DNA of 7,572 bases. It comes from an uncultured Devosia sp. (GTDB lineage Bacteria; Pseudomonadota; Alphaproteobacteria; Rhizobiales; Devosiaceae). The position numbers and the translations under genes were made by a program. How positions within the stretch are numbered: the stretch's first letter is position 1; each line of letters starts with the position of its first letter. The stretch spans positions 1 through 7,572 of the forward strand of contig CAMLKN010000106.1 of assembly GCA_946480655.1 (NCBI GenBank), in the 5' to 3' direction. This document shows positions 28 to 7,572 of the stretch, one piece after another. The notes under the pieces are model-generated. The model did not search any database, was not told the origin of the DNA, and saw only the letters and a list, made by a program, of their open reading frames with translations.

Positions 28-1320
28 ATGCCCCTTCGCCTCGATAGCGCCCAGGCCGATTTCGAACAGCGCTTTTCCGACCTGCTTGGCGCCAAGCGCG
101 AATCGAGCAAGGACGTCAATGACACTGTCGCCGCCATCATTGCCGATGTGCGGGCGCGGGGCGATGTGGCCGTCGCCGAACTCACCAACCGGTTCGACCG
201 CACCAGCCTCACGCCTGAGACGCTGGCCTTCACCGCCGACGAGATCGCTGCCGCCGCTGCCACGGTGCCGGACTATGTGCGCGCTGCGCTCCAGACCGCG
301 CATGACCGCATCAAGGCCCATCACGAAAAGCAGAAGCCGCAGGACCACGTCTATACCGACGCCCTCGGCGTGACGCTGGGCTCGCGCTGGACCCCCGTGG
401 ACGCCGTCGGCATCTATGTGCCCGGTGGCCTCGCCTCCTATCCGTCCTCGGTGCTGATGAATGCCGTGCCCGCGCGTGTCGCCGGTGTCTCCCGCATCGC
501 CATGGTCGTTCCCACGCCCAATGGCGAGATCAATCCGACCGTGCTCGCCGCCGCGCAGATTGCTGGCATCACCGAAATCTATCGCATTGGCGGCGCCCAG
601 GCCGTCGCGGCCCTGGCCTATGGCACGGCTTCGATTCCGCGCGTCGACAAGGTGACGGGTCCGGGCAATGCCTTCGTCGCCACCGCCAAGCGCCAGGTCT
701 TTGGCCAGGTGGGCATCGACATGATTGCCGGCCCGTCCGAAGTCCTGGTCATCGCCGACAGCTCCGCCAATCCCGCCTGGGTGGCCGCCGATCTGATCGC
801 CCAGGCCGAACACGGGGCAGGGGCCCAGTCCATTCTCGTCACCACCGACGAAAAACTCGCCGACGCGGTCGAGGCCGAGGTCGATCGCCAGCTTTCGCTG
901 CTGCCCAAGCAGACCATCGCCCGCGAAGGCTGGGAGGAACTGGGGGCCATCATCACCGTCGTCTCGCTCGATGAGGCGGCTGTGCTGGCCAATCGCATTG
1001 CCTCCGAACATGTCGAGATCGCCACCGACGACCCCGATGCGCTGGTCCCGAAGATCCGCCACGCGGGCGCGATCTTCCTCGGGCACCACACGCCCGAGGC
1101 GATTGGCGATTATGTCGGCGGCTCCAACCACGTCCTGCCCACCGCCCGCTCGGCGCGCTTTGCCTCGGGCCTCGGCGTGCTCGATTTCATGAAGCGCACC
1201 TCGCTTCTGGGCTGCACGCCATCCTCCCTCGCGGCCCTGGCCGAACCGGCCGTCACCATTGCCGGGGTCGAGGATCTCGATGGCCATGGGCGGTCCATTT
1301 CCATCAGGCTCAACCGGTGA
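28..1320 (+). CDS. hisD: Histidinol dehydrogenase
   Basis: This enzyme carries out the last two steps of histidine biosynthesis in the cytoplasm, oxidising L-histidinol through histidinal to L-histidine with two NAD+ and a bound zinc ion. The 430-residue length is normal for the family. The zinc ligands known from E. coli HisD are in place: Gln259 and His262 in AQAEHGAGAQ, Asp361 shortly before GSNHVLPT, and His420 in DGHGRS. The catalytic pair is Glu327-His328 in IASEHVEIA. The glycine-rich segment VGIYVPGGLASYPSSVLMN and the VTGPGNAFVA motif are also typical. The start at 28 gives a normal N-terminus; no strong ribosome binding site is seen, only a weak GAAAG, so coupling to the gene ending at 18 is possible. 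The stop codon overlaps the start of the next gene, which implies cotranscription. The identification is secure. Confidence 0.97.
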   Translation: MPLRLDSAQADFEQRFSDLLGAKRESSKDVNDTVAAIIADVRARGDVAVAELTNRFDRTSLTPETLAFTADEIAAAAATVPDYVRAALQTAHDRIKAHHEKQKPQDHVYTDALGVTLGSRWTPVDAVGIYVPGGLASYPSSVLMNAVPARVAGVSRIAMVVPTPNGEINPTVLAAAQIAGITEIYRIGGAQAVAALAYGTASIPRVDKVTGPGNAFVATAKRQVFGQVGIDMIAGPSEVLVIADSSANPAWVAADLIAQAEHGAGAQSILVTTDEKLADAVEAEVDRQLSLLPKQTIAREGWEELGAIITVVSLDEAAVLANRIASEHVEIATDDPDALVPKIRHAGAIFLGHHTPEAIGDYVGGSNHVLPTARSARFASGLGVLDFMKRTSLLGCTPSSLAALAEPAVTIAGVEDLDGHGRSISIRLNR

Positions 1321-2270
1321 GCATATCCATGGGCACAGAGCAGGCGGCGACCGACAGGAACAGGCTGGTCACCGTCACGCTCGATCCCAATACGATCACC
1401 TCGATCAATCCCGACGAGGTGCATGAATGGCGCATCGCCATCTATGACCTGCTGGAGGACAACAGTTTCCGGCCTGCGCGTGTCAGTGCCGAAGGCCCCT
1501 ACGCCCTCCATATGTCGATCATCGGCAACTACATCCTGCTCGATGTGCGCAACCCCGAGACCTTCCAGCCGATCGCCGCGCACTATCTCTCGCTGACCCC
1601 GTTCCGGCGCCTCATCCGCGACTATTTCCGCATCCGCGACGCCTACTACGAGGCCATCCGCTCGGCCCAGCCCTTCCAGATCGAGACCGTGGACATGGCG
1701 CGGCGCGGCATGCACAACGAGGCTGCCGAACTCTTGCGCACGCGGCTGACCAACAAGATCATTCTCGACCTCAATACCGCCCGGCGCCTGTTCACCCTCA
1801 TCTGTGCTGTGCAGCCCTATGCCTCCCGTATCGACGAGGCGACCAGCGAATTGCCCACTGTGCTCTTCGTCTGCTCGATGAATTCGGTGCGGTCGCCCAT
1901 TGCCGCGGCGCTGGCCCGCCAGGCCTTTCCCGGCCGCCTCATCGCCCGTTCGGTCGGCGTCAATGGCGGCAAGGCCGACCAGTTCGTACATGAGGTCATG
2001 GAAGAGATCGGCATTGATATGAGCGTGCACACGCCCCATATCCTGGACGAACTGGTCGCCAACCATTTCGATCTCGTCATTACCCTCTCTGACGATGCCC
2101 CCGATGCCGTGCGCAGGAAGGGGCTCGAAATGGGCGCGCTCGAAGAGTGGAAGGTGGAAGACCCTTCCCTCGTCGAAGGCAGTCGCGAGGTGGTTCTCAA
2201 CGCCTATCGGGACCTGCGCGACAGTCTGCGCAAGAAGGTCCGGGCTCGCCTCGAAACGCTGGTCAGCTAA
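1317..2270 (+). CDS. UPF0262 domain fused to low-molecular-weight phosphatase domain
   Basis: One uninterrupted frame of 317 codons holds two domains that are usually encoded by adjacent genes. Residues 1 to about 165 match UPF0262, an alphaproteobacterial family of unknown function, with hallmarks such as LSLTPFRRLIRDYF, RRGMHNEAAELL and ARRLFTLIC. After a linker of about 15 residues, residues 180-317 resemble low-molecular-weight protein tyrosine phosphatase or arsenate-reductase-type proteins. The phosphate-binding loop is Cys186-SMNSV-Arg192-Ser, fitting CX5R(S/T), and the likely general acid is Asp282-Pro283. The real substrate is unknown; phosphotyrosine, another phosphoprotein or arsenate are all possible. 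The GTG start at 1317 overlaps the hisD stop (GTGA), suggesting translational coupling; an in-frame ATG at 1329 is an alternative. The UPF0262 stop codon that normally separates the two genes is missing. Domain identity is well supported; the physiological role is not. Confidence 0.85.
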   Translation: MSISMGTEQAATDRNRLVTVTLDPNTITSINPDEVHEWRIAIYDLLEDNSFRPARVSAEGPYALHMSIIGNYILLDVRNPETFQPIAAHYLSLTPFRRLIRDYFRIRDAYYEAIRSAQPFQIETVDMARRGMHNEAAELLRTRLTNKIILDLNTARRLFTLICAVQPYASRIDEATSELPTVLFVCSMNSVRSPIAAALARQAFPGRLIARSVGVNGGKADQFVHEVMEEIGIDMSVHTPHILDELVANHFDLVITLSDDAPDAVRRKGLEMGALEEWKVEDPSLVEGSREVVLNAYRDLRDSLRKKVRARLETLVS

Positions 2271-6081: not shown

Positions 6082-6240
6082 TCAGATCAGCCGGGCCAAC
6101 AATGCCGTGGCCACCGCCACCAGCCCGAAAGCACTGAACATGGAGACAACCACCATGAGCCGCGCGCGCCTCGCGTGCGGCGTGTGCCGCCGCGCTGCAC
6201 TGAGGTCCGCCGCAAGGGAAGTCGAGTGGAGGTGTGCCAT
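6082..6240 (-). CDS. Small single-span membrane protein, unrecognised family
   Basis: The minus strand encodes 52 residues beginning MAHLHSTSLAADLSAARRH. The first 28 residues are polar and increasingly basic (Arg17, Arg18, Arg24, Arg25, Arg27), followed by one hydrophobic stretch from about residue 29 to the end (MVVVSMFSAFGLV, then AVATALLARLI). The positive-inside rule predicts an N-terminus in the cytoplasm and a C-terminus near the outer face. Third codon positions are mostly G or C, as in neighbouring genes. The region before the ATG has GGGGCGGA, a weak ribosome binding sequence. Upstream lies an elaborate RNA fold, which supports this being a real regulated gene. I do not recognise the family. 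The function is unknown; a role beside a transporter or in the envelope would be a guess. The gene could be spurious, as it is short. Confidence 0.5.
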   Translation of the reverse strand: MAHLHSTSLAADLSAARRHTPHARRARLMVVVSMFSAFGLVAVATALLARLI

Positions 6241-6242
6241 GG

Positions 6243-6345
6243 TCCGCCCCGTCAACGCGGCGTCGTCGAAACGCCGTTGATCCTTCGGGCAGCCGCCTTG
6301 CCGGGCTGTTTCTCACCCTCTCGGGTGGGAGACTACGCCTGCGGA
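6243..6345 (-). ncRNA. Structured 5' leader, candidate cis-regulatory RNA (riboswitch-like)
   Basis: Read as minus-strand RNA just before the small membrane-protein gene, this region folds into a closed multi-helix domain. Closing helix: UCCGC (6341-6345) with GCGGA (6243-6247). Helix 2: UCUC with GAGA, then ACCC with GGGU, capped by a GAGA tetraloop of GNRA type (6311-6332). Helix 3: CAGCC (6304-6308) with GGCUG (6290-6294). Helix 4: CCCG, bulge AAGGA, UCAACG and GCGU pairing back with ACGC, CGUUGA and CGGG (6248-6289). The closing helix ends three bases before the start codon at 6240 and occupies GGGGCGGA, so folding would hide the ribosome binding region. The unpaired GAGAAA and CCGAAGGAUCAA-type joints look like conserved ligand-core sequence. 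The class is not identified; nhaA-I (Li+) and glycine-like folds were considered. Confidence 0.45.
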
Positions 6346-6376
6346 TGCCTTTGACGAGCGACGGCTCAAAACGCGG

Positions 6377-6390
6377 TTAATTTGAATTAA
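6377..6390. promoter_or_regulatory. AT-rich operator-like dyad between the small gene and uxaC
   Basis: TTAATT and AATTAA form a perfect inverted repeat around TG, in the only AT-rich pocket between the divergent genes. It lies 68 bases before the uxaC ATG at 6458 and upstream of the structured leader on the other strand. This is the size and symmetry of a transcription-factor site, for example of the GntR or LacI type that commonly control hexuronate genes, but the regulator is inferred. TTGAAT at 6382-6387 overlaps it and could be a -35 element for uxaC. Confidence 0.4.
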
Positions 6391-6457
6391 ACACGATCCA
6401 CTACCATCTTGTATGGAAGATATTGAAACCGCCTGGCGAACATGGCACAACCCTGCC

Positions 6458-7572
6458 ATGACCCAGCCCAGCCACCTCCACCCCGATCGCCTTTTCCCCG
6501 CATCCGAGCCGGCGCAATCCATCGCGCGCGATCTCTATCCGGCGGTCAGGGATCTGCCCATCGTCAGCCCACATGGCCATACCGACCCTTCCTGGTTCGC
6601 CCAGAATGGCCGCTTTGCCAGCCCCACGGCCCTGTTCCTGACGCCCGATCACTATGTGCTGCGTATGCTGAGGAGCCGCGGCATTTCCTATGATGCACTG
6701 GGCATTCCGAGGAAGGATGGGAAGCCGGTCGAGGCCGATCAGCGCAAGGCCTGGCGGCTCTTTGCCGAAAACTACTATCTCTTCGCCGGCACGCCTTCCA
6801 AGACCTGGGTCGATCACTCGCTCCATGCCGTCTTCGGCATCACCGAAGAGCTTTCCGGCGCCACCGCCGACAGCATCTATGACGCCATCGACGCCAGGCT
6901 GGCCTCGCCCGATCTTCTGCCCCGGGCAATTCTCGAGCGCTTCAAGGTGGAGGTCATTGCCACCACCGAATTCGCGCTCGATCCCCTGATCCATCACCAG
7001 TCCATGCTCGATCAGGGCCTGATCGGCCAGGTCCGCACCACCTATCGGCCCGACGATGTCTGCGACCCGAGCCGCGCCGCCATTGTCGAGAACCTGCAAA
7101 GGTTCGGCGAACTGACCGGCGAGAATGTCAGCACCTGGGCCGGCCTCATCAACGCCCATCGCGTCCGCCGCCAATATTTCCGCCGCTTCGGCGCCGTCGC
7201 CACCGACCACGGCGTGCCCACCGCCAATACCGCCGACCTGCCGCTGGTCGAGAAACAGGCCCTGCTCGACAAGGTCCTCGCCGGCAAGCACGACGCCAAT
7301 GATGCCGAGCTCTTCCGCGCTCAGATGATGACGGAAATGGCCCTGCTTTCGGTTGAGGACGGCATGGTCATGCAGATCCATGCCGGCTCGCGCCGCAATA
7401 CCGATCCGCTGCTGTTTTCCGAGCGCGGCCCGGACCTGGGCGCCGACATCCCCGGGCCGACCGACTACGTCAACGGCTTGCGCGCGCTGCTTTCGCGCTG
7501 CGGCAACGAGCCGAACCTGCGGCTGATCATGTTCGTCCTCGACGAAACCACCTATGCCCGCGAACTGGCGCC
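6458..7572 (+). CDS. uxaC: Uronate isomerase, 3' end beyond the window
   Basis: UxaC interconverts D-glucuronate with D-fructuronate and D-galacturonate with D-tagaturonate, the first cytoplasmic step of hexuronate breakdown. The visible 371 codons are open to the window end; the family is usually about 470 residues, so about 100 are missing. The N-terminal region LHPDRLFPASEPAQSIARDL and the metal-type motif VSPHGHTDP (His39 and His41), a feature of this amidohydrolase-superfamily branch, identify it. Further family segments include FLTPDHYVLRML, NYYLFAGTPSKTWVDH, VEVIATTEFALDPL and MVMQIHAGSRRNTDP. The ATG at 6458 gives the usual N-terminus; an in-frame ATG at 6413 would add 15 residues, and neither has a good ribosome binding site. 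It is divergent from the small membrane-protein gene, and a dyad at 6377-6390 may be its operator. Identification is secure. Confidence 0.95.
   Translation, partial: MTQPSHLHPDRLFPASEPAQSIARDLYPAVRDLPIVSPHGHTDPSWFAQNGRFASPTALFLTPDHYVLRMLRSRGISYDALGIPRKDGKPVEADQRKAWRLFAENYYLFAGTPSKTWVDHSLHAVFGITEELSGATADSIYDAIDARLASPDLLPRAILERFKVEVIATTEFALDPLIHHQSMLDQGLIGQVRTTYRPDDVCDPSRAAIVENLQRFGELTGENVSTWAGLINAHRVRRQYFRRFGAVATDHGVPTANTADLPLVEKQALLDKVLAGKHDANDAELFRAQMMTEMALLSVEDGMVMQIHAGSRRNTDPLLFSERGPDLGADIPGPTDYVNGLRALLSRCGNEPNLRLIMFVLDETTYARELA

Follow-up and report, generated by a model that had tools for sequence, protein, structure and literature searches.

A conserved RNA core of about 32 nt upstream of a small membrane protein gene in Devosia is a candidate translational control element

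We analyzed a 7,572-nt stretch of DNA, here called the window, all of which is Devosia-type chromosome, and found on its minus strand a short RNA core located directly upstream of an open reading frame (ORF) encoding a small membrane protein. We are nearly certain that this region is a conserved, structured and cis-acting leader, and on balance we favor the view that it is a riboswitch-type leader controlling translation, undescribed in the sources searched. The evidence comes from sequence comparison and consists of the conservation of the core, the pairing of its outer helix (P1), its single copy per genome, its association with one gene, its position behind a promoter and the co-evolution of the linker that follows it. 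In its most complete form, our reading is that of a new class of about 30 nt, found in Devosia and close kin at the 5' end of an mRNA, in which a candidate ligand would make a CCC move from the Shine-Dalgarno (SD) run to P1 and thereby switch on a single-helix membrane protein; the chances of this full version we put at just under even. The features are listed in Table 1.

Table 1. Features of the Devosia leader and its surroundings (window positions).
Feature	Position	Strand	Remarks
Small membrane protein ORF, 52 aa	6082..6240	-	ATG 6240-6238, stop 6084-6082
Shine-Dalgarno-like GGGG	6247..6250	-	7-10 nt before the ATG
Variable linker hairpin	6250..6279	-	predicted to bring the CCC to the SD run; letters vary, pairing kept
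RNA core (aptamer-like), GGGUGAGAAACAGCCCGGCAAGGCGGCUGCCC	6287..6318	-	about 32 nt; defined by comparative conservation
P1 3' strand GCCC	6287..6290	-	contains the CCC proposed to switch between the 5' GGG and the SD run
Internal-loop strand GGCU	6291..6294	-	consensus GRCK
P2 3' strand GGC	6295..6297	-	partner of GCC 6304-6306
P2 5' strand GCC	6304..6306	-	pairs with GGC 6297-6295
Internal-loop strand GAGAAACA	6307..6314	-	core A6, G7 and A8 invariant
P1 5' strand GGGU	6315..6318	-	pairs with 6290-6287
Putative -10 element TAGTCT	6330..6335	-	TAnnnT
Putative -35 element CTCGTC	6353..6358	-	consensus TTCGnn; CTCG in the window
Upstream box ATTTnAnnYAAATTAACYGC	6373..6392	-	20 bp; candidate activator site
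uxaC (glucuronate isomerase)	6458..7572	+	PF02614; divergent from the small ORF; truncated by the window end

Besides uxaC, the window encodes histidinol dehydrogenase, a UPF0262-LMWPc fusion, IF-1, Maf, YacG, a tRNA and a GAF-GGDEF-EAL protein. In the fusion, UPF0262 and a low-molecular-weight phosphatase domain share a single ORF (1317-2267, plus strand). The closest UxaC relatives in the species genome collection belong to Devosia, with at most 94% identity over most of the length and 96% over a piece of 113 residues. uxaC more likely begins at 6458 than at 6413: with the former ATG it agrees better with many orthologues, the matches beginning at residues 9-16 in many of 50 loci. A CTACCATCTTGTATGG-type box at 6401-6420, also seen ahead of uxaC at several further loci, is possibly the uxaC operator.

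A preliminary description, made from the window alone, had proposed a riboswitch-like leader at this site, and it proved real in essence and wrongly drawn in detail. The bases that it named are present (UCCGC at minus-strand positions 6345-6341, CACCC-GAGA-GGGUG at 6327-6314 and the arms of a long hairpin at 6279-6250), as is GGGGCGGACC followed by the ATG at 6240. Likewise, the comparison across Devosiaceae bears out a structured, conserved leader in front of the small membrane protein ORF, and the idea that it is able to hide the ribosome-binding site stands. The specific fold does not. UCCGC, which was to form a closing helix with the bases preceding the start codon, lies upstream of the -10 element and of the probable transcript start near 6323, so that it is probably outside the RNA and the helix could not form in such a transcript. 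The GNRA-capped hairpin is private to the window sequence, CACCC-like letters preceding the GGG in 1 of 57 leaders. As for the CCGAAGGAUCAA joint, it covers the 3' end of the core and part of the variable linker, and this linker part is not conserved. Folding energy alone was ordinary: the minus strand from 6239 to 6360 gave a z-score of -1.23, with 26 of 200 shuffles folding equally well, the plus strand folded better (z -2.31; 3 of 200 shuffles as good), and the z-scores of nine leaders ranged from -0.4 to -2.0. Because of this, single-sequence folding was rejected as evidence and we turned to comparative data.

Collecting homologous leaders revealed a conserved 32-nt core whose base pairs covary, with the consensus GGGY-RAGAA(A)CR-GC-loop-GC-GRCK-RCCC. 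Thirteen columns were invariant in all 40 aligned sequences, namely the window and 39 of the 50 loci fetched via uxaC, in which the element lies on the minus strand between uxaC and a small ORF, five of the 40 cores being divergent; two degenerate cores (L028 and L033) were excluded from the core alignments. Among 54 distinct cores, including two variants added by eye (L168 and L169), the first four nucleotides formed standard pairs with the last four in 100% of cases, the fourth pair being UG, UA or CG, and the CCC of the P1 3' strand was invariant (54/54). The inner helix P2 was paired in 91.4% of cells; its third pair occurs as CG, UG, GU, GC or UA and is unpaired in 12 of the 54. Taken together, P1 and P2 showed standard pairs in 97.9% of cells in 34 distinct sequences, compared to 92.2% after shuffling, and a covariation score of 0.216 compared to 0.109, a value reached by none of 500 shuffles, with the caveat that the leaders are akin, so that pair counts overstate the number of independent changes and related sequences can beat such shuffles. 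When the P1/P2 structure was slid along the alignment, the fraction of paired cells dropped to 32-65%. An alternative P2 register, CAGC:GCUG, was paired in 92.3% of cells overall and showed two-sided changes with less covariation; L125 favors this register and L168 favors GCC:GGC. The choice between the two is thus ambiguous at the sequence level, and P1 holds whichever applies. A mixed register fitted poorly (63.2% paired) and was discarded. In the minus-strand reading of the RNA, standard pairs filled 364 of 378 cells, compared to 310 of 378 in the plus-strand reading, where the U-G wobbles found at the fourth P1 pair of 39 of the 54 cores turn into mismatches.

The core was found once per genome in 62 of 136 Devosiaceae genomes (model R1, E up to 1e-4), always directly upstream of the small gene, with an intact ORF in 60 cases and a frame-shifted one in two. 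This adjacency was established automatically for 56 loci, by eye for two and through the frame-shifted ORFs for two; the last two (G029 and G080) were taken as L032 and L027 on the basis of identical contig coordinates, with a protein match alongside. In both frame-shifted loci (L062 in G014 and L124 in G032), the core and the promoter are kept. Of 60 fetched leaders, 37 repeat loci fetched via uxaC, which for the most part had served to build the model; another 22 are not repeats and one is unclassified. In the order search, 14 of 397 genomes gave core matches, 11 of them already in the family set and the other three (L133-L135) inside long open frames; in the class search, the core was found in 1 of 385 genomes, the centre genome itself. 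Weak matches are lost under the stricter filters applied at the family, order and class levels. A looser search (E up to 1) gave 52 rows in 18 of 19 genomes, 13 of which were the cores and 39 weaker; we inspected 13 of these 39 as candidate extra copies and rejected them, all lying inside a long open frame.

The gene uxaC adjoins the core in all 61 fetched core loci, so neighborhood alone cannot separate the small gene from uxaC as the partner of the core. One locus (L169 in G086) carries a variant core (1831-1858) ahead of the small gene; the stretch fetched for it has no uxaC match, and the upstream box is missing from the 230 bases read. Additionally, eight Devosiaceae loci (L166, L170 and L172-L177) contain the small gene with neither uxaC nor the core in the stretch fetched. 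In D. nitrariae and D. geojensis (L035 and L036) the small gene is kept behind a short leader of different sequence that has no core, which, together with the degenerate cores of L028 and L033, indicates that the core is dispensable there. Nothing similar to the core was seen in the stretch read of L042, L043, L045 and L050, and the sequences of L044, L048 and L049 start within uxaC.

The small protein belongs to a family whose members are about 50 to 55 residues long, vary at the start and contain a basic region and a single hydrophobic stretch, the latter preceded by an Arg/His-rich segment. The gene is under purifying selection: among 32 pairs of relatives the median dN/dS was 0.185, and 96.9% of the pairs had values below 0.5. 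With a cut-off of E 0.001, 81 of the 136 Devosiaceae genomes had a match to the protein, a handful of these matches being weak or spurious. In the order search, 13 of 397 genomes matched, all 13 already among the Devosiaceae matches; within the family and order genome searches, the protein family is thus found only in Devosiaceae. The 117 database relatives are annotated as hypothetical or uncharacterized, except for one named phage holin family protein. Pfam and NCBIfam returned only stray weak rows (best E values of 0.0034 and 0.0065, respectively), and no solved structure matched below an E value of 0.8.

We analyzed the promoter region, the upstream box and the pairing of the CCC with the SD in 57 distinct leaders, i.e., the window and 56 others. 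A consensus TTCGnn-17-TAnnnT is conserved across them: 56 of 57 leaders have TAnnnT 7 to 12 nt before the GGG of the core (shuffled mean 5.9, maximum 13 of 57), and at a fixed spacing from it the -35 columns show T, T, C and G in 48, 50, 45 and 46 of 56 sequences, respectively. Given this position, the transcript probably starts at the GGG or a few bases before it, in the window near 6323. Further upstream, the TTAAC of a 20-bp box lies 59 to 63 nt before the RNA core, and AAATTAAC is present in 56 of 57 leaders when the alignment is anchored on TTAA. Judged by its sequence, this box may be an activator site; similar letters precede the small gene also in Devosiaceae lacking the RNA core. It resembles in part the CtrA site, given as TTAA-N7-TTAA (PMC11527210), without matching the full motif exactly.

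The linker between the core and the start codon varies in sequence, and its predicted pairing places the CCC of P1 against the SD. In folds of the segment from the CCC to the ATG, the probability of this pairing exceeded 0.5 in 39 of 57 leaders and was 0.5 or less in the other 18. The mean probability was 0.64 in the whole RNA and 0.64 in the segment, compared to 0.26 with shuffled linkers, and 50 of 57 leaders exceeded their own shuffled-linker mean, L108 having no shuffle and L125 a wrong SD pick because its start codon was placed too far in. We also joined the 5' half of the linker of one leader to the 3' half of that of another, generating 600 chimeras from 54 of the 57 leaders, the other three being outside the length limits. 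Native linkers had a mean pairing probability of 0.654 (n = 54) and chimeras one of 0.390, the highest of 2000 resampled chimera means being 0.557; 40% of the chimeras likewise exceeded 0.5. In minimum-energy folds, all three C residues paired with a GGG at the chosen SD or close to it in 42 of 54 leaders, and the stem just inside the CCC:SD pairing takes all pair types across leaders. These predictions indicate that the linker has been kept able to deliver the CCC to the SD, co-evolving as it varies. Since the GGG and the internal loop have also been kept able to claim the CCC, the arrangement follows the logic of a translational riboswitch, of which two exclusive partners for one strand are a hallmark. 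Indeed, the element is a conserved, structured 5' leader of a protein gene, if the transcript starts where the promoter places it, and in sequence and predicted pairing it has mutually exclusive partners that would control the SD. We thus consider it likely, on the strength of these folds, that translation is controlled by the exchange of the CCC between the two.

From these features we infer a transcript start, a direction for the switch and a ligand as its driver. Transcription would start at the GGG or a few bases before it, and the first 30-odd nucleotides would fold into P1 (GGGY:RCCC), an asymmetric internal loop (RAGAA(A)CR facing GRCK) and a short P2. In the absence of the trigger, the CCC of the P1 3' strand would pair with the GGGG of the SD across the linker hairpin, and translation of the small protein would be off. 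The ligand, for which a small molecule or an ion is the likeliest candidate, would bind in the internal loop and favor P1, so that the CCC would leave the SD and translation would be on. That the trigger is indeed a small ligand or ion seems to us an evenly balanced proposition. As only one gene is associated with the core, nothing points to a metabolite.

The same exchange of the CCC could operate without any small ligand if the internal loop were bound by a protein instead, either a regulator or the small membrane protein. A single target gene and a narrow family range would suit an autoregulatory circuit or one with a dedicated protein, and so would the Arg/His-rich segment, but an asymmetric loop in which several bases hardly vary looks just as much like an aptamer, Pfam and NCBIfam revealed no RNA-binding domain in the small protein, and this protein is retained in relatives that lack the RNA core. 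We therefore regard protein binding as unlikely, though the strongest of the alternatives. A little less probable still is a structure that binds nothing, in which P1 and P2 would protect the mRNA and the linker stem would fix a constant rate of translation. Stems at the 5' terminus are plausible mRNA stabilizers, and the core lies where the transcript probably begins; however, a stabilizer needs no conserved unpaired bases, and there would be no point in maintaining rival partners for a single CCC.

If heat rather than a ligand melted the CCC:SD stem, the leader would be an RNA thermometer. The predicted sequestration of the SD in 39 of 57 segment folds would fit, but the conserved GGG and the internal loop would be left unexplained, and no Rfam family matches this region of the window; we consider such a function very improbable. 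Equally remote, or slightly more so, is the notion that the conserved letters act in the DNA, as an operator or an initially transcribed sequence. The core does adjoin the promoter, yet the U-G that predominates as the fourth P1 pair is a wobble meaningful only in minus-strand RNA, and the linker co-evolves with the SD.

Turning back to the riboswitch-type reading, we compared the leader to known classes. Rfam 15 gave no match in window positions 6100-6450 at E values up to 10, which covers the nhaA-I, glycine and DUF1646 families, and nothing relevant in the leaders of L034, L053 and L057 or in six other loci; rows for snoR11, Transposase-2 and RAGATH-25 at the leaders were far below the gathering scores and were dismissed. 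The preliminary description had suggested nhaA-I or glycine membership, and neither holds: the glycine riboswitch has no match in that search, and nhaA-I (RF03057, gathering score 37 bits) is unmatched at the locus, where the downstream gene encodes a protein of about 52 aa without a match to any known family rather than a recognizable cation transporter. A search of 16 genomes for nhaA-I returned one match above the cut-off (45.1 bits), in D. soli (G001) and away from our locus; this true nhaA-I RNA (L178, 1501-1544) precedes the Na+/H+ antiporter gene nhaA (PF06965).

The class closest in style is THF-II (folE motif), a small two-stem aptamer of Rhizobiales with the ribosome-binding site in a stem and 86 unique representatives (PMC6800512). 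Both are small, occur in Rhizobiales, place the ribosome-binding site in a stem and have one main gene. However, the gene of THF-II is folE and its ribosome-binding site lies within P1, whereas the Devosia CCC would swap between P1 and the SD; THF-II itself was rejected, having no Rfam match here, and the downstream protein matches no known enzyme family. Li+-I (nhaA-I) is described as an antiporter-gene leader that activates expression, with a tested example from Azorhizobium (PMC9646797). It likewise belongs to a membrane protein gene, but D. soli carries it as a separate copy and the Devosia core has no Rfam match to it. Na+-I (DUF1646), a cation-sensing leader said to resemble nhaA-I (PMC9646797), differs in that the Devosia locus has no Rfam match up to an E value of 10. 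The yjdF motif, reported as a leader almost exclusively associated with one gene whose function is unassigned (PMC4793209), shares with other orphan riboswitches and with our leader the restriction to one gene, but the Devosia core has no Rfam match and was found in one bacterial family only in the family, order and class searches. Judging from titles and the opening lines of abstracts, none of the papers returned by our literature searches seemed to deal with the Devosia leader.

If our reading is correct, Devosia and its kin would possess an orphan riboswitch-like class with more than 50 distinct natural core variants, a recognizable promoter and a clear off-switch, so that in-line probing for its ligand could begin immediately. 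There would also be a first point of entry to a membrane protein family without known function. Finally, because relatives retain the gene without the core, this very small core and its simple strand-swap platform would make a good model for the gain and loss of minimal RNA switches.
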